Positions 42,312 through 59,571 of a stretch of DNA of 64,000 bases are shown here, one piece after another (the first letter of the stretch is position 1; each line of letters opens with the position of its first letter). The notes under the pieces are model-generated. The model did no database searches, was not told the DNA's origin, and saw nothing but the letters and a program-made list of their open reading frames with translations. This DNA is from a virus: IMG/VR virus record IMGVR_UViG_3300009553_000019, positions 88,627 through 152,626 of that record; one strand, written 5' to 3'. A program made the position numbers and the translations under genes.

Positions 42312-42346
42312 TTGATTCGTTAGAAGATCATTATTATGATGTTTGT
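42312..42346 (+). promoter_or_regulatory. Leaderless-type promoter, copy 1
   Basis: TTGATT at 42312-42317, 17-base spacer, TATGAT at 42335-42340, then GTTTGT and ATG. The 20-base block ATCATTATTATGATGTTTGT (42327-42346) is identical to five other copies. The predicted start is the A of the ATG at 42347. Confidence 0.7.
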
Positions 42347-42457
42347 ATGGCAGATTTGAAGGTAAGTAGGTATTACAGAGCATTTTCATACGGATTGGAC
42401 ACTCAGGGTCGAGTTCGCGTATTTCTGTCTATTACCTACGATCGACCAAAACTCTGA
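42347..42457 (+). CDS. Tiny hypothetical protein behind leaderless-type promoter
   Basis: 36 residues from ATG 42347, chosen because the six-copy element ends directly before it: MADLKVSRYYRAFSYGLDTQ, then GRVRVFLSITYDRPKL. A longer version from TTG 42239 (72 residues) stays in frame through the element and cannot be excluded. No family recognised. Confidence 0.45.
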   Translation: MADLKVSRYYRAFSYGLDTQGRVRVFLSITYDRPKL

Positions 42458-42469
42458 GCGGAGAAGTCA

Positions 42470-42694
42470 ATGGCAAAGAAGACCAAATCGATTTTTGACG
42501 TCCCGACGAGCGCTCTGCTAGTCTCATTCATAGGCCGAGGAGAAGTTCTAGTCTGCCTCAAATCCGTTGAGAAGGAGTTCGTAGCAGAGGTGTTCACAGA
42601 AGAGTATGGACGAGATATCGAAGACTATGACCGTACTGAACATGGGCTACAAGCAATGTTCAAGACTTTGGTCGATATTCATCGAAACAGCTAA
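42470..42694 (+). CDS. Hypothetical small protein
   Basis: 74 residues with GGAG ahead of the ATG. KSIFDVPTSALLVSFIGRG, then KEFVAEVFTEEYGRDIED. Alpha/beta type; no family recognised. Likely transcribed from the promoter at 42312. Confidence 0.55.
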   Translation: MAKKTKSIFDVPTSALLVSFIGRGEVLVCLKSVEKEFVAEVFTEEYGRDIEDYDRTEHGLQAMFKTLVDIHRNS

Positions 42695-42699
42695 ACATC

Positions 42700-43188
42700 A
42701 TGGACAACCCTGACGAGCTAGTTGTATTGCGTTACAAACCGTACCCAGGAGAAAAGCAAAGGCACTACGTTGGAGAGCCTGGCTGCTGGGTGGTATCCGA
42801 CCTCAAGCGGGTAATGATTAGAACCCGCAAAGAGTTTTTAGAAACTGTTCTGGAACCAGCTTGGAGCCATTTGGAAATGGTTCCAGTCTCAGAGCTAGAA
42901 GCTCAAGGTCATGCGTTGTCTATTGGGATAAAGATGGCTAAGAAGAAACGCTACGAGTTTACAGGTTGTGTTACGATCACTGTTCGTACCGTAGTTTATG
43001 CTAAGGATGAAGCCGAAGCTAGGAAGCTGATTAAGGATCGTGGCAACACGTCAGGTCTTGTTGAGCGAGGACACGAGACGGAGGAGTGGGTTACTAGTGA
43101 AGAGCTAGATGGGGAGGTTCAGAATCAAACCCTCGTATTCAGCCAAGGTGATGATCATGATGACCACGACGATGAGAACTCTGAGTAG
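42700..43188 (+). CDS. Hypothetical protein with acidic His/Asp tail
   Basis: 162 residues. Residues near 85-125 contain a beta-alpha module (KKRYEFTGCVTITVRTVVYA, then DEAEARKLIKDRG) that resembles small phage domains with E-x-A-R-K helices. The end is GDDHDDHDDENSE, a possible metal-binding or DNA-mimic tail. No family recognised. Confidence 0.55.
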   Translation: MDNPDELVVLRYKPYPGEKQRHYVGEPGCWVVSDLKRVMIRTRKEFLETVLEPAWSHLEMVPVSELEAQGHALSIGIKMAKKKRYEFTGCVTITVRTVVYAKDEAEARKLIKDRGNTSGLVERGHETEEWVTSEELDGEVQNQTLVFSQGDDHDDHDDENSE

Positions 43189-43218
43189 GTTCTTAGCGTA
43201 GCTTGAAGCTGGGGCAAA

Positions 43219-43464
43219 ATGATCAAGCTAGAAGATCTACAACCAGATCAGATTCGTAAAGCTATTCTGAATCAGTTGTCTACCGATGAATGGCAGACTG
43301 AAACACATATCTTCAATAGCGTTATGCACACTCTTGAAATAGCACCCACAAAAGAGATTGCGAAGCTACGTTTAGCTATCCGCTATCTGAGTTACAAAGG
43401 AAAGGTGGTCATTCATGCTCCCTTACATTCCGATGGTATAGTTCGTTGGCGTAGAGTGGGTTGA
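43219..43464 (+). CDS. Winged-helix-like small protein
   Basis: 81 residues: helices QIRKAILNQLSTDEWQTETH and IAKLRLAIRYLSYKGKVVIH, followed by a wing-like SDGIVRWRRVG. The pattern is that of a winged helix DNA-binding domain in which the RLAIRYLSYKG helix would be the recognition element. Target unknown. Confidence 0.55.
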   Translation: MIKLEDLQPDQIRKAILNQLSTDEWQTETHIFNSVMHTLEIAPTKEIAKLRLAIRYLSYKGKVVIHAPLHSDGIVRWRRVG

Positions 43465-43921
43465 GAGTCAGGTCGTCGTCTGACTCAGAATGGGGTTTCA
43501 AGCTCCGGTGATGCTTGAAATGACGCTGAGCCAAAATTGACAGTGGGTTGAGAGTCAGGTCTACAAAACGCAACCAAACACCTAAAAACTTTCAACCCGC
43601 ATACAAACATCTTAGTATAGCAACGTTAGGTTAGAAGTCTTGCTAGAAATCTGACAAACGAAGGCTTTCAACCTGTATACAAGCATCTTAGTAATCAGGT
43701 TCACGACCTAGATTCACAACCAAAGCTATAAACCCCTCCGTTTTAACAGCCCTATTAAAACCAACCCCGAACGTACGCGAAAAACTCTAACAAAAGAACC
43801 TGCATTTCAAGAACAGTCCAACCCACTGTCAACATCCTTACCAGCATATTCTCAACCATACAGCTAAAATAACCAAGTTGGGCTAGAAACATAAGGTATA
43901 ATCAGATGAAGGACGTTAACA
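43465..43921. other. Non-coding region with two kinds of direct repeat
   Basis: About 457 bases without a gene. The block GGGTTGAGAGTCAGGTC occurs twice (43458 and 43548). A 29-base block beginning CTTTCAACC and ending CATCTTAGTA occurs at 43589-43617 and 43665-43693 with three differences. TATAAT at 43897-43902 may serve the small membrane protein downstream. Origin, promoter array or ncRNA are possible. Confidence 0.5.
43589..43693 (+). repeat. Direct repeat, 29 bp, two copies in non-coding DNA
   Basis: Copies at 43589-43617 and 43665-43693 match at 26 of 29 positions (the middle differs: CCGCATACAAAC against CTGTATACAAGC). Period 76 bases. No coding function. Such spaced repeats resemble iteron-like or protein-binding arrays. 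Confidence 0.65.
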
Positions 43922-44050
43922 ATGTTTCCTAGCGTTTCGTATGCAGATAAACCATACATGTCGGGTGGACAGCTTGGGATGTTTCTTTTTGGTCTTATAA
44001 TCTTTGGGTTTGTAATTGGTTGGTATGCTAGAAAATTGCTTTATCGCTGA
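43922..44050 (+). CDS. Small membrane protein
   Basis: 42 residues: MFPSVSYADKPYMSGGQLG then MFLFGLIIFGFVIGWYARK. ATG 43922 has AAGGA eight bases ahead and a TATAAT at 43897. One membrane helix. Function unknown. Confidence 0.55.
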   Translation: MFPSVSYADKPYMSGGQLGMFLFGLIIFGFVIGWYARKLLYR

Positions 44051-44059
44051 AAGTGAAAA

Positions 44060-44500
44060 ATGACTCCACAAGAGCTGTATAACAACCTAGTGAAAGATCT
44101 AGCAATTCTCGAAAAGAATATTGGTAGTACTACAACAAGCAAGTGGGACGAATCGGAGAAGGCGTTAGATAGGGTTCAAGATTATGGTAAGTCACTATTC
44201 GCTCTAGCAGAAAGTAAACTTACGGTAGGAAGCAATTTCGCTATCGGAAGTAAGGTGTATCCTGGCTTGGGAAAGTTGGTTGAAGAAGCGGGAGAGGTTC
44301 TTCAAGTCATAGGTAAGTTGATGGGGACCTACGGAGCCGAGCAGCACTGGGATGGAACCAATCTACGAACCAGGCTTGAAGAAGAGTTAGCAGATTTGAT
44401 GGCTGCTAACTTATTTGTAACAGAGGTTAATAAGCTTTCTGTATCTGATCGTCTTATTAAGAAACTCGACCTATTTAGGAAGTGGCACAAAGAATCATGA
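44060..44500 (+). CDS. MazG-like NTP pyrophosphohydrolase
   Basis: 146 residues. LGKLVEEAGEVLQVIGKL and LEEELADLMAANLFVTEVN supply the E-E-x2-E and E-x2-D acidic sets that bind Mg2+ in the MazG fold. It differs from the MazG-like protein at 12511, lacking the zinc domain. Phage MazG proteins hydrolyse NTPs, dNTPs or (p)ppGpp. ATGA overlap with the next gene. Confidence 0.75.
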   Translation: MTPQELYNNLVKDLAILEKNIGSTTTSKWDESEKALDRVQDYGKSLFALAESKLTVGSNFAIGSKVYPGLGKLVEEAGEVLQVIGKLMGTYGAEQHWDGTNLRTRLEEELADLMAANLFVTEVNKLSVSDRLIKKLDLFRKWHKES

Positions 44501-44772
44501 CCTTAGTGTTGAAGATCTGTCCGAAGTGTCAAAAGCGAAAAGCAGACAACTGGGAATCGTTCGTAGCTGACATAAACAATAGTTGCTTTGCGCAGAGTGG
44601 TATGATAATGCCATTGCAGCTTTGCAAGGACAGACAGCAAACATTGCTAATGAGCTTAGCAAGGACAGGATTTCTTTCAACCTTAGAACTTGCTTTGAAT
44701 CTTGGCTATAAAGAGACAGAAGCTGAAGCACGCAAAGCATTAGCTCTGTTAGATGCTATGGACACCAACTAG
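44497..44772 (+). CDS. Hypothetical protein with CxxC motif
   Basis: 91 residues from ATG 44497 (ATGA overlap). Begins MTLVLKICPKCQKRKADNW and later has Cys in NNSCFAQSG and LQLCKDR, possibly one zinc site; the rest is helical. No family recognised. Confidence 0.5.
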   Translation: MTLVLKICPKCQKRKADNWESFVADINNSCFAQSGMIMPLQLCKDRQQTLLMSLARTGFLSTLELALNLGYKETEAEARKALALLDAMDTN

Positions 44773-44779
44773 AGGAATT

Positions 44780-45126
44780 ATGAAAGCATCAGAAATTCTT
44801 CGCAAAGCAAGAGAGTTACCATTCACCAAAGGAACTTACGCCAGAGATTCAAGTGGCCAACCTGTAGGAATTATGAACTCTGACGCAGTATGCTTTTGCA
44901 CCATTGGAGCAGTAGCTAGAGTATCTGGAAAGTTTTATAGAAACGAGGCCAAGCCAGGACCCTATGAGCTAGCACTAGATGCATTACGAGATTCGATTCC
45001 GAAGCGGATTGTTAGTAAAAACCACCATCAATAGCAAACACTAGTGATACACTACCAGAGCAGAAGCGCTTAGAGTGGTTTGACAAAGCTATAGAACTAG
45101 CAGAAAAGAGTGAAATCGATGTCTGA
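44780..45126 (+). pseudogene. DUF6197-like gene split by a -1 frameshift
   Basis: The first frame (44780-45034) gives MKASEILRKARELPFTKGTYA, then DAVCFCTIGAVARVSG, typical of DUF6197 phage proteins, and stops at TAG 45032. The family's C-terminal part appears in the -1 frame from 45019 to TGA 45124: NTSDTLPEQKRLEWFDKAIE then LAEKSEIDV. The break lies between 45019 and 45034, just after GTAAAAACC. It is a mutation, a sequencing error or programmed shift. Downstream ATG 45119 overlaps the shifted frame's stop region, suggesting the tail was translated. Confidence 0.5.
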
Positions 45127-45472
45127 GAAATACAAACTCCTTGGAATTGAAACCGGTAGGATTCAAAGCAAGTTACCAACCATTCACCGGAACATTGATT
45201 TTGACGATATTAAATCTAAGCAGACCTCAGCTAAACTGGTAAAACAAACGTACCAAATTGTCATCTACACAGTGTTGGATGAATCGGAACCCAACACAAA
45301 AAACCTGGCCGAGCATTTAATCGAATGCGAACCTCACAGTGCTTTTGACCTGGTAGAGGCGGTTCCCGTAACTTCACTGGAAATGGTTGACAAAGACTGG
45401 AGAAACTCTCAACCATACGGGGTTGATGATGGCACTGTAGCAACGATCCTTGAAGAGCTCAACAAAGACTAA
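45119..45472 (+). CDS. Hypothetical protein
   Basis: 117 residues from ATG 45119. Beta strand YQIVIYTVLDESEPNTKNLA and helix LAEHLIECEPHSAFDLVEAV form an alpha/beta module. No family recognised. Confidence 0.55.
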   Translation: MSEKYKLLGIETGRIQSKLPTIHRNIDFDDIKSKQTSAKLVKQTYQIVIYTVLDESEPNTKNLAEHLIECEPHSAFDLVEAVPVTSLEMVDKDWRNSQPYGVDDGTVATILEELNKD

Positions 45473-45474
45473 CA

Positions 45475-45780
45475 ATGGATACTGTTTACTACAACGCCAA
45501 GCGTTTAGGAATTACGATGTCAAAAAAGATCGTTAGAACTCTGAAATTCACACCTGGAGTTGAATGCGACATTATTGGGTCTACAGATATTCCATTAACT
45601 GCTCACCGACAAAGGCTATCAGCGTATGAAACACTTTTCGAATCTATTCCCAACGGGAAAGCTTTGATTATTTCTTGTAGCGATTCCACCATGAAGAAAA
45701 TCATGAATGCGTTACGAGGCAGAGTTGCTTCAGCTACTCGATATGATGATAAAACTGTTAGGATGATCTGGAAACTATGA
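45475..45780 (+). CDS. Hypothetical protein, two possible starts
   Basis: 101 residues from ATG 45475, which lacks a Shine-Dalgarno; an in-frame ATG at 45517 has AGGA six bases ahead and would give 87 residues. Core: KIVRTLKFTPGVECDIIGST, later KALIISCSDSTMKKIMNALR. Alpha/beta type, no family recognised. ATGA overlap with the next gene. Confidence 0.5.
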   Translation: MDTVYYNAKRLGITMSKKIVRTLKFTPGVECDIIGSTDIPLTAHRQRLSAYETLFESIPNGKALIISCSDSTMKKIMNALRGRVASATRYDDKTVRMIWKL

Positions 45781-46163
45781 ACAGCGACAAGCTAGTGAAG
45801 CTACGTCAAGCAGCTACTGATGCTACACCAGGATCTAGAACCATAATTGGTAACATTATCTGGGTTAACCACTTACCTTTAGTTAGATCACCGTCAACCA
45901 TACCAGGACTTGGTCGTGAGGATTTTCCAGGTGTAGTCTGGGTTACACCAGCAGATCGAGATTTTGTAGCAGCCTGTGATAGGGAAACTATTCTCGATCT
46001 GCTTGATCGGGTTGATACTTTGCAAAGGATGTTGGCAGAAGCAACACTAACAATTGCAAGGCTTGAGCATGGAGATGATGTGACAAAATTTCAACCTCTA
46101 GCTGAAGGCCATTGGGTAGGAAAAGAACCAAACGTTCAAAAGATTCCAAAGCCTGATACTTGA
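45777..46163 (+). CDS. Ead/Ea22-like protein
   Basis: 128 residues. LVKLRQAATDATPGSRTI, TPADRDFVAACDRETILDLL and the following helix (DRVDTLQRMLAEATLTIARL) match the Ead/Ea22-like family of small phage accessory proteins, in which a D-A-x-F-(I/V)-A-A segment precedes a coiled coil. Molecular function of the family is not established. Confidence 0.65.
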   Translation: MNSDKLVKLRQAATDATPGSRTIIGNIIWVNHLPLVRSPSTIPGLGREDFPGVVWVTPADRDFVAACDRETILDLLDRVDTLQRMLAEATLTIARLEHGDDVTKFQPLAEGHWVGKEPNVQKIPKPDT

Positions 46164-46193
46164 AATGTAGCAAATCATTATTATGATGTTTGT
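46160..46193 (+). promoter_or_regulatory. Leaderless-type promoter, copy 2
   Basis: TTGAAA at 46160-46165, 16-base spacer, TATGAT at 46182-46187, GTTTGT, ATG at 46194. The -35 overlaps the last codons of the Ead-like gene. Confidence 0.7.
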
Positions 46194-46490
46194 ATGGAAG
46201 ACAATGAAGTTAATTACACAATAGCAGGATTTCAGTATTTGCTGGAATGCGAGATGGCAACTTACGAGCATTTGAAAATGAACAAACGCTCTAGCAAGAA
46301 TGAAATCAAACGACACGAATCTATCATTACGAAAACTTTCTACAATCATCGTGGTGTGTTTGCGAAACTTACGAACTCTGGTTCCAAACCAGCTGGCTAT
46401 AACGCCTGCCCAAGAGTCGATGACATTTTGAACCAGGCTTCGAAAACATCCCTTAAAGAAGCGCTGGAAGAGTACTTCAAACAAAAATGA
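46194..46490 (+). CDS. Hypothetical protein behind leaderless-type promoter
   Basis: 98 residues, no Shine-Dalgarno (GTTTGT before ATG). Helical, with basic middle (HLKMNKRSSKNEIKRHESII) and a C-terminal helix (TSLKEALEEYFKQK). No family recognised. Confidence 0.55.
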   Translation: MEDNEVNYTIAGFQYLLECEMATYEHLKMNKRSSKNEIKRHESIITKTFYNHRGVFAKLTNSGSKPAGYNACPRVDDILNQASKTSLKEALEEYFKQK

Positions 46491-46777
46491 AAGTTCGAGT
46501 AATTTTTACACAATCTACAAGTAAAACTGCAGACGGCAGACTAACTCTTAGTTCTTTTCCAACAGCCAGAGTTGCCGAAGTTATCAAACGTTTTGACGAA
46601 CTTGGCCAGAAGATTACTGAACCAAGTTCATTTGATACAAACGATCTGAAGAGCTGCATCCTTACTTTTGAGGATGATGAAGAAGAGACTGAGTACGAGT
46701 TTGAGAAACTCAGTGGCAAGTGGGTTGAGACTACTACGAAAGAAGTAGTGACTATCTACTACAAGTTTGAGGATTAA
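46487..46777 (+). CDS. Hypothetical acidic protein
   Basis: 96 residues, ATGA overlap. KVRVIFTQSTSKTADGRL, then a strongly acidic strand (TFEDDEEETEYEFEKLSG) and VVTIYYKFED. A small beta domain; no family recognised. Confidence 0.5.
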   Translation: MKVRVIFTQSTSKTADGRLTLSSFPTARVAEVIKRFDELGQKITEPSSFDTNDLKSCILTFEDDEEETEYEFEKLSGKWVETTTKEVVTIYYKFED

Positions 46778-46857
46778 TGTTAACAACGTTAGTCATAGTA
46801 CTTGGAATCACTACAGTCGTATGGTTACTTTACGGACTCATAAGAGGAGCAAACTGA
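46777..46857 (+). CDS. Tiny membrane protein
   Basis: 26 residues, TAATG overlap: MLTTLVIVLGITTVVWLLY then GLIRGAN. One membrane helix. The next ATG follows its stop directly, with GAGGAG inside this gene as ribosome site. Confidence 0.4.
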   Translation: MLTTLVIVLGITTVVWLLYGLIRGAN

Positions 46858-47373
46858 ATGGAATTCAAAGCATCACCCGCCAACAGTAACCCCACAAACC
46901 CTAATGCACTTTGCATCAACTGTGGATGTATTCGTCTATCGCATAGGTTAAGAGGTTACACCATCAAGGGTGAAATGCTTCTTTGCGAGAAAGATTCGAA
47001 GGCTCTCAACCAAGAAGAGATTGAAGCAATCATCAAGCTTGATTCCGAAAGACCAGAATGGTATCATGAAGCGCTGTCAGCTGGCTGGAAACCACCAGAA
47101 GCTAAACAGGAATTACCCATTGAGCTAGAAGAGGCGGTAAATTGGGTTTGTGGTAGTGCAGGAAATGCAATTGCAAGAGGGAATTCTAAAAAGTGGGATG
47201 CTGCAGTTGCTGTTATCAAACAGGCTTTAGGTATAAAGAGTCAGGTCTGCAAAACTTGCAACGATACCCGAAAAGTAACTTGCGCTTTATGTAGAGGAGA
47301 TTGGGACAACGGTCGTATGTCTTGCATGCGATGCGATCATGGCGAAGTCGAATGCTCAACTTGCTCAAAATAA
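46858..47373 (+). CDS. Protein with DnaJ-type Cys-rich zinc domain
   Basis: 171 residues. N-terminal zinc knuckle (LCINCGCIRLSHR), a helical middle, and a C-terminal row of CxxC motifs (VCKTCNDTRKVTCALCRGD, MSCMRCDHGEVECSTC) spaced like the DnaJ zinc-binding repeats. No J domain is present. It may be a zinc-dependent adaptor; function unknown. Confidence 0.6.
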   Translation: MEFKASPANSNPTNPNALCINCGCIRLSHRLRGYTIKGEMLLCEKDSKALNQEEIEAIIKLDSERPEWYHEALSAGWKPPEAKQELPIELEEAVNWVCGSAGNAIARGNSKKWDAAVAVIKQALGIKSQVCKTCNDTRKVTCALCRGDWDNGRMSCMRCDHGEVECSTCSK

Positions 47374-47383
47374 AGTACTTGAC

Positions 47384-47417
47384 TTGAAACTCCACAGATC
47401 ATTATTATGATGTTTGT
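47384..47417 (+). promoter_or_regulatory. Leaderless-type promoter, copy 3
   Basis: TTGAAA at 47384-47389 (a TTGACT lies five bases earlier), 16-base spacer, TATGAT at 47406-47411, GTTTGT, ATG at 47418. Confidence 0.7.
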
Positions 47418-47597
47418 ATGGACAAGAAACAATTCACAGTCTCTTTCAAAGTGGTTGGAACTCTCAGCAGAATCCTAGATGCTTCAAACGAACGTCTAGC
47501 AGCTGAAGAAGCAATTCGACTTTACGACGAAGATCCAGAAGCTGGTTGGGAACTGGAATGGGAAACCGACGGAGAACCCCGTGTTGAGGAGTCATGA
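47418..47597 (+). CDS. Small hypothetical protein behind leaderless-type promoter
   Basis: 59 residues: MDKKQFTVSFKVVGTLSRI, then ASNERLAAEEAIRLYDEDPE. Strand-helix pattern with an acidic end. No Shine-Dalgarno. No family recognised. ATGA overlap with the next gene. Confidence 0.5.
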   Translation: MDKKQFTVSFKVVGTLSRILDASNERLAAEEAIRLYDEDPEAGWELEWETDGEPRVEES

Positions 47598-49390: not shown

Positions 49391-49424
49391 TTGATTAACT
49401 CATAATCATTATTATGATGTTTGT
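49391..49424 (+). promoter_or_regulatory. Leaderless-type promoter, copy 4
   Basis: TTGATT at 49391-49396, 16-base spacer, TATGAT at 49413-49418, GTTTGT, ATG at 49425. This copy is followed by ATGAAA where four of the six copies have ATGGA. Confidence 0.7.
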
Positions 49425-49664
49425 ATGAAACAATCAACCATTCAAGATATTCGAAACATCAAGTGGGTTGGTAATCACGCTAGTGATGCTAAGAATTTTG
49501 ATACGGTAGAGAAGTTCATCGTCCAAAAAGATCCTGATTTAGATATGCAGGAAATGATAGAAGCCCTGACTATTAAGTTTAGAGACGGGATGGGAATCCC
49601 TGAAGAGTGTTCCGAAGTAGATGTTTTTGAGTATCTGGAAGCAATTCGATCAGGTTGCAGCTAA
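49425..49664 (+). CDS. Small hypothetical protein behind leaderless-type promoter
   Basis: 79 residues: MKQSTIQDIRNIKWVGNHAS, later LDMQEMIEALTIKFRDGMG. Helical and acidic. No Shine-Dalgarno. No family recognised. TAATG overlap with the next gene. Confidence 0.5.
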   Translation: MKQSTIQDIRNIKWVGNHASDAKNFDTVEKFIVQKDPDLDMQEMIEALTIKFRDGMGIPEECSEVDVFEYLEAIRSGCS

Positions 49665-49933
49665 TGATAACCCGATACGAAGACCCAATTGCTAAGCTGA
49701 GAAATCTACAAGCTGAATATGCAAAAGCTCTCAGCAAGACTAAAGACCCATTGAAAGCTCTCGAGCACATATATTTGCTAGGAGTCGTTGATGGTGAGGG
49801 TAGGTTAGTTGGGTTGATGCAACACTTGAACAGGGCAGAAGAGAATTACCAAGCTGGAAGGTCTGGTAAACCCATGCCAATCCATCCTAATCTAGAACAA
49901 GCTAATAGTATCACTACAGAGACTAGAACTTAG
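49664..49933 (+). CDS. Hypothetical helical protein
   Basis: 89 residues from ATG 49664. PIAKLRNLQAEYAKALSKT and ALEHIYLLGVVDGEGRL. Mostly helical, polar. No family recognised. A boundary hairpin and the tRNA gene follow. Confidence 0.5.
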   Translation: MITRYEDPIAKLRNLQAEYAKALSKTKDPLKALEHIYLLGVVDGEGRLVGLMQHLNRAEENYQAGRSGKPMPIHPNLEQANSITTETRT

Positions 49934-49960
49934 GTAATGACAGGTTTACAAACTGTCTGA
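49934..49960 (+). terminator. Bulged hairpin upstream of tRNA
   Basis: GACAG-G-TTT pairs with AAA-CTGTC leaving one bulged G. The GTAATGACAGGTTTA part is the reverse complement of the boundary motif seen at 38267 and matches 59482. Likely terminator or processing structure. Confidence 0.4.
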
Positions 49961-49983
49961 TTAGTTTTAGCCTCAATTCTTTT

Positions 49984-50057
49984 GTCTCAGTAACTCAGTT
50001 GGATAGAGTACGGGGTTTCTAACCCTGAAGTCGTAGGTTCGAGTCCTACCTGAGACG
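49984..50057 (+). tRNA. tRNA-Arg, anticodon UCU
   Basis: Full cloverleaf: acceptor GTCTCAG/CTGAGAC with discriminator G, D arm, anticodon stem CGGGG/CCCTG around loop TTTCTAA (anticodon TCT), T arm GTAGG-TTCGAGT-CCTAC. CCA is not encoded (GCAA follows). It reads AGA, a frequent Arg codon in this genome. Confidence 0.95.
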
Positions 50058-50086
50058 CAAATCAAAAACTGAAAAGGGAAGAATCA

Positions 50087-50215
50087 ATGTCAATTAACGT
50101 GAAGCTTTCAAAGCCTGATGAAGTTGCAACCAAAATCTGGAAAGAGGGCTTTTTGGTTGGGATGTTCTTTGGAACTGTTATTGTTGGTATCATTGTACTG
50201 TTGGTAGTTGGATGA
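50087..50215 (+). CDS. Small membrane protein
   Basis: 42 residues with AAGGGAAG ahead of the ATG: a polar start (SINVKLSKPDEVATKIWKEG), then FLVGMFFGTVIVGIIVLLVVG. One C-terminal membrane helix. ATGA overlap with the next gene. Confidence 0.55.
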   Translation: MSINVKLSKPDEVATKIWKEGFLVGMFFGTVIVGIIVLLVVG

Positions 50216-50475
50216 AAAAGATTTACAAGTATAAGTTAACAAGCAAAGACTTAGAGCTAGAACTTCCAGCAGGTGCAAAAATACTACAAGCGAAATTTGC
50301 AACTGATGGTTCGCTTTGTCTCTGGGCAGTTGTCACACCTGGTTCAGAAACTGTTCATAGGTATTTTAAGGTGCTGCATACTAACGACGAAGTTGATGAT
50401 GATCTTCAATACATCAACTCGGCTAGCAATGCTTCAGGTTTCAACACAGTCCATGTCTTTGAAGTGATGATCTGA
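50212..50475 (+). CDS. Hypothetical small beta protein
   Basis: 87 residues: MKKIYKYKLTSKDLELELPA, then CLWAVVTPGSETVHRYFKVL and NTVHVFEVMI. Beta-rich. It resembles small phage proteins with a K-Y-x-L start, but function is unknown. Confidence 0.55.
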   Translation: MKKIYKYKLTSKDLELELPAGAKILQAKFATDGSLCLWAVVTPGSETVHRYFKVLHTNDEVDDDLQYINSASNASGFNTVHVFEVMI

Positions 50476-50642
50476 TGGATACCGGAAACCGAGTTCGGGA
50501 TCGTTTCAATAAGAGGATGGGTTATGTTAGGCAACCAGGTCAGTCTCCAGATTTAGTTATAGTGCAATGGGATGGTGAGTTGAAACCTTCTATTGTAGAG
50601 AAAGATAGACTGGAATTGATTCCAAAGGTTAAGAAGTCGTGA
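50475..50642 (+). CDS. Small KOW-like protein
   Basis: 55 residues, TGATG overlap: NRVRDRFNKRMGYVRQPGQS, then VIVQWDGELKPSIVEKDRLE. The GYV...VQWDG...L pattern is typical of short KOW/SH3-type phage proteins. Overlaps the next gene (GTGA). Confidence 0.5.
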   Translation: MDTGNRVRDRFNKRMGYVRQPGQSPDLVIVQWDGELKPSIVEKDRLELIPKVKKS

Positions 50643-50836
50643 TTTTCTGTTGTCCAAACTGTGATTTTGATCAAGAGTTCTCAACCCCATTCAAATCGAT
50701 TAGAGTTGGTGATATGCTTAGTTGCACGAACTGCACAACTAAGTTGGTAGTTCGTTCGTCAACTGCTACTGATGTAAAAGTGCAGAAGTATGTAGCTCCA
50801 ATGATTATCACTGACAAGGTAAAGAAATATGGCTAA
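50639..50836 (+). CDS. Small zinc-ribbon protein
   Basis: 65 residues from GTG 50639. FCCPNCDFDQEF and LSCTNCTTKLVV are the two knuckles of a zinc ribbon. Function unknown. Confidence 0.55.
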   Translation: MIFCCPNCDFDQEFSTPFKSIRVGDMLSCTNCTTKLVVRSSTATDVKVQKYVAPMIITDKVKKYG

Positions 50837-51036: not shown

Positions 51037-52167
51037 ATGGCACAAACAAAAGCGTTTCAAAAGTTGATCCATAGTGATGCTATGGAAGCTATTCGTAACT
51101 TGTCAGTTCCAGTTGAAGGACTAGCAGAAGTCATTCAAGATCATTGGACTTTTGACCTCTACAGTAGGAAGCCTGGTCCAGCTTATCTAGAAGATGGGGT
51201 TATCAAACCTACCGATCTGGATCTGGTGTGCTTCTTGTCAGCTTTAGCTGATCGAAATGCGGTTATCAATCTTCCTTCTTACACCAGCAAGAGAGCAAAG
51301 ACGATTAGAGAAGGCGAGACTGTTATCTCTAATAAGAACCGTCATGGGAAGGTTATTGGTTTGAATGCTAATAAGGCAGTTCTTTCCTTCTCAATCCGGA
51401 TTGAAGATATGAACGTTATGTCTTCTGATGGTCTGGGTTCAGAAGAGATTGGAGCTCCACGAAACTTTATGATTGTGGACTTGGATGGAGAGTTCTACTC
51501 AGGTTGGAAAACAATCGAATTTGTCCCTACTGCTAAGGAGAATGATTTCCTAAATGATAAGCAGCTTTGGACAGGCAATTCAATCTATTTTGAGAACTTT
51601 GTCCATCCAATGCGTTGGACATCATTCTTTGGGCAATACTTTTTCGTAACAAAAGCATTGATTAACCGTCTTGAACAGGATTTGACTTACACAAATCTCT
51701 GTATCCAGCAATTGCTGAAAAATGGAATCAAATTTCCTACCAGCGGTGATGGTTCTAAAAAGGAATGGCCAGCATCAACCAAGGGTGAGAGTAAGTCAAT
51801 TTCAGTTAAGACTTGCGAGGTAGAGGTTGACATCCCTTGGACTGGATCTTATGTTCACCCATCTAAGATTGAGAATTCTCAAGAAAATCTAGTTCGCCTG
51901 GATAAGTTAGCACACAAGATCAAGCACAAGCAACTTCCAGCTCTAAGGTTTGCTACCAGAGCAACTGAGTTAGCGTTTTTTAAGAATGGTGGGGTTACCA
52001 CTAACTTTCCTACTTGGATTAAGGGAGCTAGCTGGGAGACAGATTACGTTCAGCCAGGAAAGCGAACTGAATGGAATCGGCTTATGCTAACTCAGAGATT
52101 CCCTTTTGAAAAGGGATTTGCAATTCGTTATCGTGAATTTGAGAAGAGTGAAAGGGTTGCTGTCTAG
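51037..52167 (+). CDS. Hypothetical protein
   Basis: 376 residues, the largest unassigned gene of the accessory region. Begins helical, then a mixed alpha/beta body (NAVINLPSYTSKRAKTIREG, RNFMIVDLDGEFYSGWKTIE, TSFFGQYFFVTKALINRLEQ). No recognisable motif. Moderately basic. Its size and codon use like neighbours argue for a real protein. Confidence 0.6.
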   Translation: MAQTKAFQKLIHSDAMEAIRNLSVPVEGLAEVIQDHWTFDLYSRKPGPAYLEDGVIKPTDLDLVCFLSALADRNAVINLPSYTSKRAKTIREGETVISNKNRHGKVIGLNANKAVLSFSIRIEDMNVMSSDGLGSEEIGAPRNFMIVDLDGEFYSGWKTIEFVPTAKENDFLNDKQLWTGNSIYFENFVHPMRWTSFFGQYFFVTKALINRLEQDLTYTNLCIQQLLKNGIKFPTSGDGSKKEWPASTKGESKSISVKTCEVEVDIPWTGSYVHPSKIENSQENLVRLDKLAHKIKHKQLPALRFATRATELAFFKNGGVTTNFPTWIKGASWETDYVQPGKRTEWNRLMLTQRFPFEKGFAIRYREFEKSERVAV

Positions 52168-52418: not shown

Positions 52419-52791
52419 CACAAAGAAAGTCATCGATTCTGATGACTGGGTAATTGCAGAAGCTGGTGGGGTTGCTTACATAGGGAAACTAGCTTTTGGA
52501 GTCGACGACGCCATTCTGGGCTTTGATAACAATAAGATGATCCAGCTGTCCCCAGTCTTCGAGCTTTACAAGGGACTTCACCCACAACAAAACGGGACGT
52601 TGGGGAAGTTTATTCAGATCATGGCACTTGGTTTGTGTCTTGATACTGCAAGAATCTGCATTCGTCCAACGACATTAACCTTTCTTAATTCTCTTTCTAA
52701 AGAAGATGTTCGGGAGTACGAAAACATACTTCGAGATGTTGTAAACAGGATTACTCAAGCTAGGGCAAAGCGTTCAGGTATTATAGCGTGA
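52399..52791 (+). CDS. Hypothetical protein
   Basis: 130 residues; ATG 52399 has GGAGG five bases ahead. SDDWVIAEAGGVAYIGKLAF is a beta segment; later LGKFIQIMALGLCLDTARI is helical. No family recognised. Overlaps the nusG-like gene start (GTGATG). Confidence 0.55.
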   Translation: MESMIIDTKKVIDSDDWVIAEAGGVAYIGKLAFGVDDAILGFDNNKMIQLSPVFELYKGLHPQQNGTLGKFIQIMALGLCLDTARICIRPTTLTFLNSLSKEDVREYENILRDVVNRITQARAKRSGIIA

Positions 52792-53456
52792 TGTTAACAG
52801 AAGCTGAGAAAATTGCTAACGCTGCAAGAAAAGTACGTCGACAGGCTTTAAAAGAGATTTACGCTAAAGCTGATGCAAAGGCAAAGCCTGATGGGACTTT
52901 CTTTGGGTGGTATGGCATTATCTGTAGTTCTGCAGCTGAATGCCGAGTAGGCCTAAAGCTAAAAACCTACGCTGAAATGCTCGGCATGGGAGATTTGGTT
53001 GATCACTACCTAATTCCAAACCAGTTGGAGTTAGTTCGGAATTCAGATGGATCTGAACGGTGGAAGTCAGAACGTCTGTTTGCTGGATATCTTCTGTGTA
53101 AGCTTAAACTAACTCCAGATCTGAAGAATTTGATCTGCGCGATTCCAGGTGTAGTTGGATTTGTCACAGATCGAACTGGAATGAAACCTCAACTAGTTTC
53201 ACAAAGAGAGGTCGACTGTGCCATATCATTGATGTATCAGTCAGTGACTGGCCAGATGAAGAAGAAACAGAGAACTGATTTGGTAGTTGATCAATGGGTT
53301 GTAATTAAAGGTGGCCCATTTGAGAATTTCAAAGGTCAGATTAAGCGTATTGCTGATGGTAGATTGATGGTACAGCTATCGCTTTTTGGTCGTATTACTA
53401 CAGTGTCTTTTGACCAATCAATAATCGCTCCTGACCCATTAGCAGGGAAAGTGTAA
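52791..53456 (+). CDS. NusG-family transcription factor homologue
   Basis: 221 residues. After a basic 38-residue extension, the NGN domain starts WYGIICSSAAECRVGLKLKT and continues with RLFAGYLLCKLKLTPDLKNL then CAIPGVVGFV. The KOW domain near residue 172 reads VVIKGGPFENFKGQI, then LMVQLSLFGRITTVSFD. This matches NusG/RfaH throughout. NusG binds RNA polymerase and controls elongation and termination; an antitermination role on phage operons is inferred. TAATG-type overlap with the next gene. Confidence 0.85.
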   Translation: MLTEAEKIANAARKVRRQALKEIYAKADAKAKPDGTFFGWYGIICSSAAECRVGLKLKTYAEMLGMGDLVDHYLIPNQLELVRNSDGSERWKSERLFAGYLLCKLKLTPDLKNLICAIPGVVGFVTDRTGMKPQLVSQREVDCAISLMYQSVTGQMKKKQRTDLVVDQWVVIKGGPFENFKGQIKRIADGRLMVQLSLFGRITTVSFDQSIIAPDPLAGKV

Positions 53457-54055: not shown

Positions 54056-54076
54056 AGGTTCTGAAAGGTTCAAATT

Positions 54077-54508: not shown

Positions 54509-54527
54509 TTCATACTTTTCGATACGG

Positions 54528-54560
54528 TTAGCTGCATCTTAAACTAGTAGATGCAGCTAA
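54528..54560 (+). terminator. Terminator-like hairpin
   Basis: TTAGCTGCATCT pairs exactly with AGATGCAGCTAA around a nine-base loop. Twelve pairs; no long T run follows. Lies between the basic protein and a winged-helix gene. Confidence 0.6.
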
Positions 54561-54578
54561 ACCAATGTTTAGGTCTAT

Positions 54579-54824: not shown

Positions 54825-55030
54825 GTAAGGTAGTAGCGATCAGACACAGTACTGTTGTCTGGGTTACTGGTACCATGACCATTGATGGTCGACATTTAAC
54901 ATTGAATCTTTCTTGTAGTCGTTGCTTAGTCACCTGGAATTACAAGAGATTTTGTGGTAATATTAATTCTGTAAAAGAGAAAGCCTTGACTGTGTTTGGT
55001 ATGGAACATACCAAGTGCATTGCAAAATGA
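54821..55030 (+). CDS. Small hypothetical protein
   Basis: 69 residues from GTG 54821. Beta strands (TVVWVTGTMTIDGRHLTLNL) followed by a Cys pair (SCSRCLVTW) and further Cys. Possibly one zinc site. No family recognised. Confidence 0.45.
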   Translation: MSKVVAIRHSTVVWVTGTMTIDGRHLTLNLSCSRCLVTWNYKRFCGNINSVKEKALTVFGMEHTKCIAK

Positions 55031-55407
55031 ACGTCCAGAGAATCTTACTGTCGTGGAAAGAAGAGTTTGTTCAAGTTGGGTGGTTAGCAGATTTCCATCC
55101 CATGCTAGAGATTTATGAACCAATCGATTTAGGCGATGGCCGTTCTTATCAGTTGCGCTACGCTAAGACTTACGGGGCTAGTTTTTGGAGACCAGAACTA
55201 GAAGAGATGGAACCAAGACTAGGAGAGCTAGATTCAAAGCCAGGTGGAGTGGGTATCTATGCTGAGTGGCTTAAAAGGCAATGCTTCAAGGTTGGTGATC
55301 AAGATCTTAGAATAGCAGATGCTTCAATTAGGGGGTTGGGTGTTAGTAGATTCCTGTTTAATGAGATCACTTTCAGCTATTCATCAGCTGTTGGAACCAA
55401 GCAATAA
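55027..55407 (+). CDS. Hypothetical protein
   Basis: 126 residues from ATG 55027 (ATGA overlap). Contains DLGDGRSYQLRYAKTYGASF, GVGIYAEWLKRQCFKVGDQD and a beta-type end. No family recognised. Confidence 0.5.
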   Translation: MNVQRILLSWKEEFVQVGWLADFHPMLEIYEPIDLGDGRSYQLRYAKTYGASFWRPELEEMEPRLGELDSKPGGVGIYAEWLKRQCFKVGDQDLRIADASIRGLGVSRFLFNEITFSYSSAVGTKQ

Positions 55408-55462
55408 CATAGGTTGTTAGTTAAGTTTAGCTTAGTATGCAATACAGAAAAGAGATTGACTA

Positions 55463-56269
55463 ATGTGGGAACTATACGGTGTAGATGTTTCTAACTATCA
55501 GTCGACAACAGGTCCAGGCGGAAAGTCATATGACGAATTAGCCAGGACATGTAAGTTCGCCATGGTAAGACTCTCTTATGGCACCTACAAAGATCCAGCT
55601 GCGGTTCAACACTTCAAAAACTTTAGAGCGGTTGGAATCCAGGTTGGTGGGTACCATTTCTTTCGTTCAACCCAATCAGTAGCTGATCAACTTACTGTTT
55701 TTAATGCTCAAGCTGCAGATTGTGGGTACCTGCCAGGTGATATTGCCCCTTCTTTAGATATTGAAGATGACCCAAGAGTTGCTACTGTTAGTCCGAGTTG
55801 GGTTCCCCAACTGAGGGAGTTTATGGCTTGCTTGCTTTCTACTTACGGAGAGGCAATGCCTTATCTTACTCAGTATGCTTATAACATACTGTTAAAGCCT
55901 TCTTTTATTTTAGTCAGACCTTTGTGGGTGCCTTATTGGGTTAACTCATCTAACCCAGCATCTCCTGGTGGAGTTACTCCAGCGATTTGGCAAAGAAGAG
56001 TTGGGCCATACGTTTTTAATGGCGAGGGCGGAGTGTTCAAACCCCAGTTAATAGATCAAAATGTAGCACACAATGTGTTACCACTAGCTCGAACAGTAGC
56101 TAAAATGCCCGTTGTTGTACCACATACTGATACCCCACCACTGCATACTGAAGAAGACCTCTGGAAGAATCGTTTGGATAGCATCACTAACGATGCTTGG
56201 AGCCAGTTAAATTTGAAGCTAGAGCCAGATGATTACGAAACTTACGATGGGGATGGAAAGGTCAAGTAA
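55463..56269 (+). CDS. GH25-family lysozyme (muramidase)
   Basis: 268 residues. GH25 hallmarks: GVDVSNYQ at 6-13, FAMVRLSYGTY, GGYHFFR near 63, and SLDIEDD with the catalytic Asp99 and Glu101, then WVPYWV and AIWQRR late strands. It hydrolyses peptidoglycan. No signal peptide, so export by holin or use as a virion-borne enzyme is likely. The final 45 residues are a linear tail after the barrel. Confidence 0.9.
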   Translation: MWELYGVDVSNYQSTTGPGGKSYDELARTCKFAMVRLSYGTYKDPAAVQHFKNFRAVGIQVGGYHFFRSTQSVADQLTVFNAQAADCGYLPGDIAPSLDIEDDPRVATVSPSWVPQLREFMACLLSTYGEAMPYLTQYAYNILLKPSFILVRPLWVPYWVNSSNPASPGGVTPAIWQRRVGPYVFNGEGGVFKPQLIDQNVAHNVLPLARTVAKMPVVVPHTDTPPLHTEEDLWKNRLDSITNDAWSQLNLKLEPDDYETYDGDGKVK

Positions 56270-56287
56270 GAATCTTGTTTTCAGTAC

Positions 56288-56321
56288 TTGATTAGTTGAA
56301 GATCATTATTATGATGTTTGT
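56288..56321 (+). promoter_or_regulatory. Leaderless-type promoter, copy 5
   Basis: TTGATT at 56288-56293, 16-base spacer, TATGAT at 56310-56315, GTTTGT, ATG at 56322. It begins the NAD+ metabolism operon. Confidence 0.7.
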
Positions 56322-56513
56322 ATGGAAAAGAAAATCGTCCGACACATCATTCAAATCACAAATGATGATGGTGAGTGGGGAGATTACGCTCCAGGATCAG
56401 TTGCTCGATTAGATTTGGAGTCTACTATCAGCATTGCAAAAGCACTAAAGCCTGATAGGAGACGTATGCGAGTAGTTACTCTGACTGAAACAGCATCAAC
56501 AGAGGTTGAGTGA
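56322..56513 (+). CDS. Small hypothetical protein heading the NAD+ operon
   Basis: 63 residues: MEKKIVRHIIQITNDDGEWG, then LDLESTISIAKALKPDRRRM. Strand-helix-strand type. No Shine-Dalgarno, leaderless start expected. GTGA overlap with the next gene, which in turn overlaps the NAMPT gene. Confidence 0.5.
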   Translation: MEKKIVRHIIQITNDDGEWGDYAPGSVARLDLESTISIAKALKPDRRRMRVVTLTETASTEVE

Positions 56514-56737
56514 TTAACCTATCTGAAAGATTTGCTAGCGATCGATTCAAAGTGATCGCAACCTTTCCAGATGGTGTTCCAGTCAAAGTCTGTTCTAGTG
56601 AGGAGGGTTTTACATTCTGCGAAGCTTGTAGAGTTTTAGAACATGCTGCTAAGTTTTACGTTGGTATGAGATTGCAAATTGTACCTGATTTTGAAGTTGT
56701 TGAAGGTTTGGTAGAATTAACCCAGGAGTTGAAATGA
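56510..56737 (+). CDS. Small hypothetical protein in the NAD+ operon
   Basis: 75 residues from GTG 56510: FKVIATFPDGVPVKVCSSEE, then EACRVLEHAAKFYVGMRLQI. Alpha/beta type. No family recognised. ATGA overlap with NAMPT. Confidence 0.5.
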   Translation: MINLSERFASDRFKVIATFPDGVPVKVCSSEEGFTFCEACRVLEHAAKFYVGMRLQIVPDFEVVEGLVELTQELK

Positions 56738-58182
56738 GAAGTTGGAATTCACGTACTGTTCAGTTGAAAGAAGATCTGCCCTACAACCTGCTGACTGACA
56801 CTGATAGTTACAAGTTCAGCCACCCTGGTTTGTATCCCGACGGTACGACCAGTATGCAAAGTCATCTTATCGCACGTGGTGGTGAGTTTGATACCTGTAC
56901 ATTAGCAGGGCTTCAGTACATTCTTCATAAGTATCTAGCAAAGCCAATCACGCTAGATATGATTGAAGAGGCTGAAAGCTTTGCTGGAAAGCATGGTGAG
57001 CCTTTCAACAAGGAAGACTGGCTCTATGTTATGAAAAAGTATGGCTACCTTCCAGTCAGGATTCGCGCTATTCCTGAAGGGTTGGTAGTACCAGTAAAGT
57101 CAGTACTAGCTACGGTAGAGTCGATGGTTGAAGATGCTCGGTGTTTCTGGATCGTATCCTGGATCGAAGATATCCTCGAGCGCTTGTGGTACCCTAGCAC
57201 AATTGCAACTACCAGCAGGGAATCAAAGAAGATCATCAAAGAGTATCTCGATCTTTCTTCTGATGATCCAGAGGCTGAAATTGGGTTTAAGCTTCATGAC
57301 TTTGGTGCTAGGGGTGTTGCCACTCTAGAGCAGGCTAGAATCGGTGGAGCAGCGCATCTTTTTAGCTTCTTCGGTTCAGATACCGTAGAAGGTATTCGAC
57401 ATGCTAATCACTATTACGATTGTGAAATGGCAGGTTTTTCAATTCCTGCAACAGAACATTCTGTAATGGCTATGTGGGGTGCTAATCATGAGATTAGCTG
57501 TTGCGAGAATTTCATTCGTAAGATGTTGATTGAACGCCAGGTTCCAGCAGGATCTCCAAAGTTTGCAGCTTGCGTTAGCGATACTTATAACGTGTTTGAG
57601 ATGTTTAAAGCTTGGACTCATCCCTTCTTACTCGATCTGATCAAACAATCAGGTGGGACTCTAGTTGCTAGACCAGATTCAGGTAACCCGCTAACGGTTC
57701 TTCCAACTTTGTTTGAGATTCTTCAATCAAGGCTGCCAATTACTATCAATAGTAAGGGTTATAAGCTGTTGCCATCTTACTTCAGGATGATTCAGGGTGA
57801 TGGCATTGATATGCAATCAACCAGAGCTATTTGTAAAACTCTGACTGACCTGAAGTGGTCGATCTCAAATATTGCCTTTGGTTCGGGTGGGGGTTTGCTT
57901 CAAAAGGTAAACCGAGATACTCAGATGATCGCTTTTAAGAACAACCATGCTATCATTAATGGCAAATCAGTTGCTGTTAGAAAGAATCCTATCACAGACA
58001 GTGGTAAGGCTAGCTTGGGCGGTCGTTTAGATCTAGCGCTGATTGATGGCGTTTACAAAAATGTTGTGCTAGATCTTGGTGTTGATAAACATCCCCAATC
58101 GGTTATGAATACTGTCTTTGAGATGGGTGATGTTATGTACCACACTACTATGGACGCTTGTCGGCAGAGGATGGCGCTGTAA
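56734..58182 (+). CDS. nampt: Nicotinamide phosphoribosyltransferase (NAMPT)
   Basis: 482 residues, the usual length of NAMPT. Makes NMN from nicotinamide and PRPP. LTDTDSYKFSHPG starts the protein; KLHDFGARGVATLEQA, the ATEHSVM segment with the ATP-hydrolysis-linked His near residue 241, ARPDSGNP near 312, and GDGID and GSGGGLLQKVNRDTQ for phosphoribosyl binding all follow in order. It should recycle nicotinamide released when NAD+-cleaving defences act. TAATG overlap downstream keeps it in one operon with the NMN adenylyltransferase fusion. Confidence 0.95.
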   Translation: MRSWNSRTVQLKEDLPYNLLTDTDSYKFSHPGLYPDGTTSMQSHLIARGGEFDTCTLAGLQYILHKYLAKPITLDMIEEAESFAGKHGEPFNKEDWLYVMKKYGYLPVRIRAIPEGLVVPVKSVLATVESMVEDARCFWIVSWIEDILERLWYPSTIATTSRESKKIIKEYLDLSSDDPEAEIGFKLHDFGARGVATLEQARIGGAAHLFSFFGSDTVEGIRHANHYYDCEMAGFSIPATEHSVMAMWGANHEISCCENFIRKMLIERQVPAGSPKFAACVSDTYNVFEMFKAWTHPFLLDLIKQSGGTLVARPDSGNPLTVLPTLFEILQSRLPITINSKGYKLLPSYFRMIQGDGIDMQSTRAICKTLTDLKWSISNIAFGSGGGLLQKVNRDTQMIAFKNNHAIINGKSVAVRKNPITDSGKASLGGRLDLALIDGVYKNVVLDLGVDKHPQSVMNTVFEMGDVMYHTTMDACRQRMAL

Positions 58183-58307
58183 TGAAAATTCCAAAAGAGG
58201 TTACTGCCAGATTTGTAAACGAAGATACTCGATTTGTTATCAGTGGTATTAAATGCTCTACTGATGATGGTTTAGCAGATTTCACTATTAAGATTGAGCG
58301 AGAATGA
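58182..58307 (+). CDS. Small hypothetical protein between NAMPT and NMNAT genes
   Basis: 41 residues, TAATG overlap: MKIPKEVTARFVNEDTRFVI, then SGIKCSTDDGLADFTIKIE. Beta-type. No family recognised. Overlaps the next gene (ATGATG). Confidence 0.45.
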   Translation: MKIPKEVTARFVNEDTRFVISGIKCSTDDGLADFTIKIERE

Positions 58308-59458
58308 TGGACTGGGGAGTTAAGAGTTCGATTAAAAGGCTGTTGGTTGATCAGCCCAAGGCCAAACTATACCTAGCCTTAGCAGGGTCGGGGATAGGAA
58401 CACTATTGAAGATACAGGAAATTCCCGGAGTATCTCAAGTTCTTCATGGTGCTAGGTTGATTTATGGCAAAGAGGATATGACAAACTTCTTGGGTTTTGA
58501 AGTAACTCAAGCAGTGTCAGAAAATACCTCAATCTACCTAGCGATGGAAGCATATACACAAGCGGCCGTCAATCACTCCACTATGCCAATAGGTATTGGT
58601 TTGACAACTGCTATTGCTAGTAATCGAGAGCATAAGGGTAAGCTAAGAGGTCATGCTACCATTATCTCTGACAAGCTAATGTGTACATGCGAATTTACCC
58701 TCCAACCAGGTGTTGGAGAGAATGCCCGAAGGCAGCACAACGATACCATAGATCTCGTTCTTGAAGGTCTGCTTCAGTCTACGGTGTCTAAAGAAACCAC
58801 CTCTTATCCTGTAGTCACTAATTGCTCTGAAAAAGCCTTGAGGCTGTTTTTAGAGATGGGCTATTTTGGTTCAAATGGGTTTAGGGGTAATTCAGAGCGG
58901 AATGGACCACCTGATGCAGTTATCTTTCCAGGTTCGTTCAACCCGGTTCACGACACCCATTTGCAGATGGCTAAATCGGTGTCTGAAGAGTTGCGAAAAC
59001 CTGTAGTACTCTTGGTTAGCACTGACCCACCACACAAATCACAGCAACCAGTAACAAACTTTCTTCGAATTGTCAACACCGTCCGTAAGTGGAACTCTTC
59101 GTATATTGGTCCAGCTGGACAGCTTCATGTTAAATTTCATACAGGTCTGCCTTTGTTTGTTGACAAAGCTAGGTTTTTTTCAGATCAGCAATTTATTGTA
59201 GGTGCTGATACTCTTGACAGGTTGCTCGATTCAAAATGGGGTCTACCAACGTGGGAAGTAATTAACAGGCTGAAGAATTCTAGAACGCAGCTTATCGTGT
59301 TTGATCGTATTTTAGAAGATGATTCTGTTTTGATGCTTCGTGATGTTCTAGATCAGTATCGAATCTGGCCTTATGCGAAGAGTAATTTTAGACAGGTTCC
59401 ACATACTCCTTCAAAGATCAGTTCTTCTGGGTTGAGAGCTGAAATAGCCAAGCTATAA
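58304..59458 (+). CDS. CinA/PncC-like domain fused to NMN adenylyltransferase
   Basis: 384 residues. Residues about 17-185 match the CinA C-terminal (PncC, NMN deamidase) fold: LYLALAGSGIGTLLKIQEIP, SQVLHGARLIYGKEDM, IGIGLTTAIASNREHKGKLR. The PncC motif AES-x-T-GG reads AGS-x-I-GT here, so activity is doubtful. Residues about 205-384 are a nucleotidyltransferase with PGSFNPVHDTH (HxxH) and the C-terminal SKISSSGLRAEI, as in NMNAT/NadD, which joins NMN and ATP to give NAD+. It follows NAMPT in the operon, completing the nicotinamide-to-NAD+ route. Confidence 0.8.
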   Translation: MMDWGVKSSIKRLLVDQPKAKLYLALAGSGIGTLLKIQEIPGVSQVLHGARLIYGKEDMTNFLGFEVTQAVSENTSIYLAMEAYTQAAVNHSTMPIGIGLTTAIASNREHKGKLRGHATIISDKLMCTCEFTLQPGVGENARRQHNDTIDLVLEGLLQSTVSKETTSYPVVTNCSEKALRLFLEMGYFGSNGFRGNSERNGPPDAVIFPGSFNPVHDTHLQMAKSVSEELRKPVVLLVSTDPPHKSQQPVTNFLRIVNTVRKWNSSYIGPAGQLHVKFHTGLPLFVDKARFFSDQQFIVGADTLDRLLDSKWGLPTWEVINRLKNSRTQLIVFDRILEDDSVLMLRDVLDQYRIWPYAKSNFRQVPHTPSKISSSGLRAEIAKL

Positions 59459-59481
59459 TGTATCAAGAACAATCTGAAACC

Positions 59482-59510
59482 TTACTAATGACAGGTTTAA
59501 CAACTGGTTA
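59482..59510 (+). terminator. Boundary hairpin after NMNAT gene
   Basis: TTACTAATGACAGGTTT (59482-59498) is the exact reverse complement of 38267-38283. Here CAG-G-TT pairs with AACTG around TAAC with a bulged G. Followed 30 bases later by a leaderless-type promoter, so it marks a unit boundary. Confidence 0.45.
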
Positions 59511-59536
59511 TTAGTCAATTTGTTGAAGATTAGTAC

Positions 59537-59571
59537 TTGATTTAGGTTCTAATCATTATTATGATGTTTGT
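59537..59571 (+). promoter_or_regulatory. Leaderless-type promoter, copy 6
   Basis: TTGATT at 59537-59542, 17-base spacer, TATGAT at 59560-59565, GTTTGT, ATG at 59572. Confidence 0.7.

Follow-up and report, generated by a model that had tools for sequence, protein, structure and literature searches.

The DNA analyzed here (the window, 64,000 nucleotides) covers positions 88627-152626, the final 64 kb, of the 152,626-base virus record IMGVR_UViG_3300009553_000019, which represents a large phage known without cultivation; a window coordinate equals the record coordinate minus 88626. The 20-mer ATCATTATTATGATGTTTGT occurs in it six times unchanged, always on the + strand and always followed directly by an ATG, with starts at 42327, 46174, 47398, 49405, 56302 and 59552. 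This confirms, at exactly these positions and on this strand, the six identical elements ending at an ATG that a preliminary description had reported. By chance, 0.04 would be expected, and six copies were reached in none of 100 shuffles; the window holds no further copy even when up to three mismatches are allowed. The predicted promoter copies, the open reading frames (ORFs) behind them and two possible reader genes are listed below in window coordinates (SD, Shine-Dalgarno sequence).

31687-32295, + strand: sigma70-family factor, 202 aa, with regions 2 and 4; candidate reader of the class
35084-35728, + strand: second sigma70-family factor, 214 aa, with regions 2 and 4; candidate reader of the class
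42312-42346, + strand: predicted promoter copy 1; TTGATT, 17-nt spacer, TATGAT at 42335-42340, discriminator GTTTGT; 20-mer at 42327-42346
42347-42457, + strand: 36-aa ORF; ATG at the predicted +1, no SD; the sole case with upstream in-frame TTG codons
46160-46193, + strand: predicted promoter copy 2; TTGAAA, 16-nt spacer, TATGAT at 46182-46187, GTTTGT
46194-46490, + strand: 98-aa ORF; ATG at the predicted +1, no SD; no family and no phage match
47384-47417, + strand: predicted promoter copy 3; TTGAAA, 16-nt spacer, TATGAT at 47406-47411, GTTTGT
47418-47597, + strand: 59-aa ORF; ATG at the predicted +1, no SD
49391-49424, + strand: predicted promoter copy 4; TTGATT, 16-nt spacer, TATGAT at 49413-49418, GTTTGT
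49425-49664, + strand: 79-aa ORF; ATG at the predicted +1, no SD; no phage match
56288-56321, + strand: predicted promoter copy 5; TTGATT, 16-nt spacer, TATGAT at 56310-56315, GTTTGT
56322-56513, + strand: 63-aa ORF; ATG at the predicted +1, no SD; followed by NAMPT- and NMNAT-like genes
59537-59571, + strand: predicted promoter copy 6; TTGATT, 17-nt spacer, TATGAT at 59560-59565, GTTTGT
59572-59751, + strand: 59-aa ORF; ATG at the predicted +1, no SD; followed by Nudix, phosphatase and terminase genes

No informative family or homolog was found for the promoter-proximal proteins tested. Farther downstream of the window copies lie the NAMPT- and NMNAT-like genes, a GH25 endolysin gene and the run of Nudix, phosphatase and terminase genes, and at 51-73 kb of the record the copies are followed by genes for an ADP-ribosylglycohydrolase, PolX, a 5'-3' exonuclease, a DNA ligase, an SNF2 helicase and a sliding clamp. 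The preliminary description had suggested an early takeover regulon; with replication, NAD salvage, endolysin and terminase genes mixed behind the copies, this timing is unproven and amounts to a guess. The NAMPT-like (56734-58182) and NMNAT-like (58304-59458) genes are adjacent, and the pair could possibly form an NAD salvage pathway acting against an NAD-depleting defense. The ADP-ribosylglycohydrolase gene occupies record positions 51099-52139, and the genes for the Nudix hydrolase and a dual-specificity-type phosphatase (window 59761-60895) stand directly 5' of the terminase gene.

Several other features of the record were noted. Two long stretches of the window are without called genes (40393-41537, 1145 nt; 43465-43921, 457 nt), and paired repeats occur in the second; two of them, on the minus strand (43589-43617 and 43665-43693), resemble the -10 and discriminator of the promoter, TACTAAGATGTTTGTATG. 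An intergenic repeat with inverted arms, AAACCwGTCATTAGTArGGTTT, is found at window positions 42136, 59477 and 38274 and at record position 20211, twice shortly upstream of a promoter of the class. Collagen-like Gly-X-Y coding repeats are present at both ends of the record (record 1-2340, window 63216-63919); the contig ends therefore probably fall within a single repetitive gene, and little of the genome may be missing.

The search was extended to the full record, where 13 clear copies were found, eight exact and five with one or two mismatches, all on the + strand, at record positions 49859, 50685, 53253, 55217, 59055, 61033, 71137, 130953, 134800, 136024, 138031, 144928 and 148178; the reversed pattern gave none. 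The preliminary description had held that the 20-mer should not occur equally often away from start codons across the genome, and the search came out in its favor; all eight exact copies adjoin an ATG. In a PWM scan of both strands that included the -35 box, 12 copies scored 39.5-48.4, and the copy at 71137, whose -35 distance is unusual, scored 28.2 on the 20-mer part alone; the best place outside the copies reached 13.0 and shuffled sequence at most 9.6. No copy lies between 0.5 and 49.5 kb or between 71.2 and 130.9 kb of the record. Judged from these sequences, a single private promoter class is real; six of its 13 copies in the record fall in the window.

In the consensus of the class, TACTTGATT is separated by a spacer with ATCATTAT at its end (16-17 nt between the boxes) from TATGAT, which is followed by GTTTGT and the predicted A(+1). 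All 13 copies have a TTGA box, normally 16-17 nt ahead of TATGAT; the six window copies agree with the TTGAnn box described for them, at a distance of 16 nt for the 20-mers at 46174, 47398, 49405 and 56302 and of 17 nt for those at 42327 and 59552. The -35 region reads TACTTGATT(T) in many copies, and the short stretch preceding the 20-mer varies. TTGACA-like and TATAAT-like boxes 16-18 nt apart, as in a sigma70-type promoter, are thus present, with 71137 oddly spaced, and in all six window copies the boxes match housekeeping sigma70 sites at 9-10 of 12 positions with ordinary spacing. Invariant across the 13 copies are C3, T5-A10, G12, T14 and T17-A21.

In 11 of the 13 copies an ATG is found at the predicted +1, for which the chance is ~1.6e-17 if the sites are independent. 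Ten of these ATGs, each with its A on the predicted +1, open an ORF without an SD; in record order these ORFs encode 256, 130, 52, 48, 36, 98, 59, 79, 63 and 59 aa. The first of them (record 49879-50649) encodes a 256-aa protein whose N-terminal MVALMVLTGCG resembles a lipoprotein signal. For all ten, the first base of TATGAT (TAAGAT in one case) lies exactly 12 bp upstream of the ATG. In TA-led leaderless genes, a TANNNT -10 box has its first T ~12 bp upstream of the start codon (PMC3160421), and when the criteria for such genes (Zheng 2011) were applied, the -10 box was found at the required position and an SD was missing in ten copies. The duplex energy with the anti-SD at the ten +1 ATGs was -1.4 to +0.6 kcal/mol, compared with medians of -2.4 kcal/mol for all ATGs and of -3.9 kcal/mol for the other genes, the latter somewhat biased to strong SDs because the underlying gene calls reward them. 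The six window ATGs, which had been described as lacking an SD, do lack one by this measure (+0.3 kcal/mol).

The ATGs behave as genuine starts in other respects. In nine of the ten ORFs, an in-frame stop precedes the ATG without an earlier possible start (the exception is 130953), and in seven of those nine the stop is 33 nt before the ATG, within or close to the -35 box. Over the 30 codons that follow the ATG, a coding signal is seen in frame in all ten ORFs and not in the other frames, and in predicted folds of the first 60 nt the 5' AUG is mostly unpaired. A genome-wide leaderless tendency was rejected, as no TANNNT peak at -12 exists outside the class, and SD starts are common elsewhere in the phage; 28 of 100 long ORFs have one at the farthest start, and a loose criterion that rewards SDs finds one for 89 of 201 called genes. 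As the predicted first mRNA base is the A of the ATG, the ten genes are probably translated from leader-free messages.

The remaining three copies constitute a natural control. In these, the promoter and the +1 A are retained, and the gene start follows 11, 14 or 23 nt later behind an SD (record coordinates, all + strand).

59055: followed by ATAGGAAGTTGAAGATG; start at +14, SD AGGA
61033: followed by ATGAGGATCTCATGG; start at +11, SD GAGG; the first ATG yields only 7 codons
71137: followed by AGAGACTGACTTACTGAGGGAAGATG; start at +23, SD GAGG

Their anti-SD duplex energies are -4.3, -6.1 and -6.1 kcal/mol. The existence of these copies means that the promoter itself would need no ATG at +1, and an SD that is present where the ATG is not at +1 is as expected if transcription begins at that A in all 13. 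The three leadered copies therefore lend strong support to a leaderless reading of the other ten, as far as sequence can.

The same copies bear on the rest of the 20-mer, for which the preliminary description had suspected a further role of GTTTGT and of an ATCAT/ATGAT palindrome. TTTG is kept in 12 of the 13 copies, two bases ahead of the start, and TTTGTA is retained in all three leadered copies; since TTTGT and the +1 A are kept there too, they would be a feature of the promoter and not of translation, and at that level the suspicion about GTTTGT stands. The inverted repeat is broken without compensation in three of the five variant copies (50685, 61033 and 71137), which argues that it is probably no separate dimer site.

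We propose that a sigma70-type RNA polymerase holoenzyme would recognize the TTGAtt and TATGAT boxes and start transcription at the A seven bases past the -10. In ten copies that A would be the first base of the ATG, and the transcript, beginning 5'-AUG, would be a leaderless mRNA whose translation involves no SD; the other three, whose genes start 11, 14 or 23 nt farther on after a proper SD, indicate that leaderlessness would not be demanded by the promoter. The sequence itself shows the copies, their boxes and spacing, the ATG at the predicted +1, the missing SD and the SDs of the three exceptions, whereas promoter activity, the exact +1 and leaderless translation are what we infer. Leaderless mRNA is the best reading of the ten copies, which are very probably leaderless; were transcription to begin 1-3 nt away from the A, the message would be near-leaderless instead. 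Of the leaderless promoter regulon in the preliminary description, this leaves the conserved promoter class, the predicted +1 on the A of the ATG and the missing SD, and takes away the early takeover and the separate palindrome role. Counting against the explanation, the promoter-proximal proteins tested gave no informative homologs, the 20-mer is more strictly conserved than a sigma70 site needs, and the -35 distance of the copy at 71137 is odd. The strict conservation would reflect tight recognition by one holoenzyme, and taken as a whole, a sigma70-read class with ten leaderless and three leadered copies is an explanation in which we have high confidence.

That holoenzyme might contain the host sigma, perhaps together with a phage factor, or a phage sigma. 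The phage encodes the two sigma70-family proteins listed above and a NusG-like protein (window 52788-53456), and a phage factor would be consistent with the additional conservation seen in the spacer and discriminator. If one of the two phage sigma factors read the class, its genes would be middle or late and not host-sigma early. The two sigma genes, the conservation beyond the -35 and -10 boxes and the endolysin and terminase genes downstream speak for this; the close match of the boxes to housekeeping sigma70 sites at ordinary spacing speaks against it, as does the failure to find a second promoter class left over for the host sigma. We regard it as a serious contender, while leaning slightly the other way. 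The search for a second class, made with k-mer, EM and pattern methods for the structural and replication blocks, gave nothing that held up, only a weak TTAActTnAGcT-like signal among it, and the T4-late-type TATAAATA is absent as a class in the phage. A search for a single-subunit RNA polymerase found no match in the phage, but as the control genomes gave none either, this carries no weight. The number of terminator-like sites in the region does not exceed chance, and the only match of an Rfam scan was a tRNA.

The 20-mer might instead be an RNA or translation signal inside longer transcripts and not a promoter. The start-associated sequence (SAS) of cluster K mycobacteriophages, GGGATAGGAGCCC, offers a model for this; it contains an SD-like AGGAG and has been discussed as linked to translation initiation (PMC3203893). 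Like the 20-mer, it is a short repeat that occurs many times directly before phage gene starts, mostly in one orientation (PMC3203893); unlike it, the 20-mer has a different sequence, no SD, and -35 and -10 boxes, and GGGATAGGAGCCC itself is not matched. An identity that is perfect over 20 bases up to the ATG would suit such a signal, and a short AU-rich hairpin could form if the element were transcribed, but the hairpin is broken in three variants, TTGA lies outside the repeat at a near-fixed distance, the element carries no SD, and three copies retain it although the SD-led start is 11-23 nt away. An RNA signal is thus improbable.

A promoter of the Bacteroidota type, with TTG and a TAnnTTTG -7 element as its consensus, in a host that rarely uses SDs, would account for the TTTG two bases before the start. 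However, the required first T of TAnnTTTG is a G in all 13 copies, SD starts are common in the phage, and the named terminase relatives mostly infect Proteobacteria, which makes this reading more improbable still.

The weakest alternative, a cassette that was recently duplicated or is mobile, with its copies identical by descent and under no special selection, would explain eight copies identical over 20 bases, but we rejected it as very improbable because the flanks and the spacer beside the 20-mer are at or near random identity (mean pairwise identity at -120..-40 of 0.26, the random level, in line with the earlier remark that the remaining upstream DNA differs), the -35 spacing differs by one base among copies, and no stem-loop or other cassette part is common to them. 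The copies are thus not recent duplicates, and a sigma70-type promoter class remains the preferred reading.

Neither the 20-mer nor relaxed forms of the full structure were found in IMG/VR, in GTDB genomes or in the records of 13 relatives, and a much looser pattern gave 11 matches in IMG/VR, single copies on unrelated contigs that look like chance. A distant relative, Virus Rctr197k (KX853510.1; terminase 36.5% identical), carries an element of unrelated sequence, TGGCAC-N7-GCTATMAAGTGA-N3-ATG, in 19 copies scoring at least 17.9, the next score being 6.3. Reading the list by eye, we counted 14 copies with the ATG at the same position, one with GTG, two shifted by one base and two with SD-led leaders (16539, minus strand; 28087, + strand); sites among the 19 lie at 128620-141941 (+ strand) and at 12840, 15598 and 16539 (minus strand). 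Both phages therefore have one repeated promoter-like element of which most copies end exactly at a start codon and a few (two in Rctr197k) are SD-led, whereas the Rctr197k element is unrelated in sequence and has a fixed GG-N10-GC spacing, which we take to recall sigma54, or else, in TGCTATAAA, an extended -10. No sigma70-family or sigma54-activator gene was found in Rctr197k.

No ATG-locked class was found in eight related contigs (G001-G008), PaBG, NCTB or Vibrio phage GR11A, so the geometry is not universal. The ATG-abutting candidates seen there were rejected as SDs, coding repeats, a repeat with a non-start ATG, and a TATAATG whose ATG overlaps the -10 box. In IMGVR_UViG_3300025133_000029, a repeat (ACACG or TAGG)TAAATGCTYTG... 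at ~133-158 kb, mostly on the minus strand, resembles a T4 MotA box, and its ATG is no start codon.

To our knowledge, phage mRNAs without a leader have been described chiefly as isolated examples (lambda cI) or for phages whose hosts are themselves leaderless-rich. In Thermus phage phiYS40, likewise a lytic phage with many leaderless transcripts, start sites were mapped and the majority of middle and late genes are leaderless (Sevostyanova 2007, summarized in PMC3594737), whereas here leaderlessness is predicted and limited to one class of 13 copies, and many starts elsewhere in the phage are SD-led. In Deinococcus-Thermus, a -10 motif adjoins the ORFs of leaderless genes (PMC12340547). The TA-led and Deinococcus-Thermus genes share with the class a TANNNT starting 12 bp before the ATG and the lack of an SD (PMC3160421, PMC12340547), but theirs are loose hexamers across a host genome, compared with a private, near-invariant 20-mer with a -35 box in one phage. 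The leaderless principle is thus already known from phiYS40 and Deinococcus-Thermus, and an entire sequence-locked promoter class is unusual; what is new is this class, together with the leadered copies that serve as its internal control and the parallel seen in a relative whose promoter is different.

The fusion of start codon and promoter might itself be under selection in the phage lineage, with leaderless translation as a deliberate mode for one regulon. The promoter differs between the two phages (TTGATT/TATGAT here, TGGCAC/GCTATAAA in Rctr197k) and the ATG would stay locked to +1 in both, which points in this direction, and we advance the two together as a tentative and rather doubtful reading. 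If the fusion is selected, a leaderless mode could sustain translation when initiation factors or 30S initiation are altered. The ten ATG-locked and three SD-led copies form a clean set for testing whether the placement of the AUG at +1 sets the mode of translation, and the parallel class in Rctr197k suggests that the geometry may outlast the promoter sequence.
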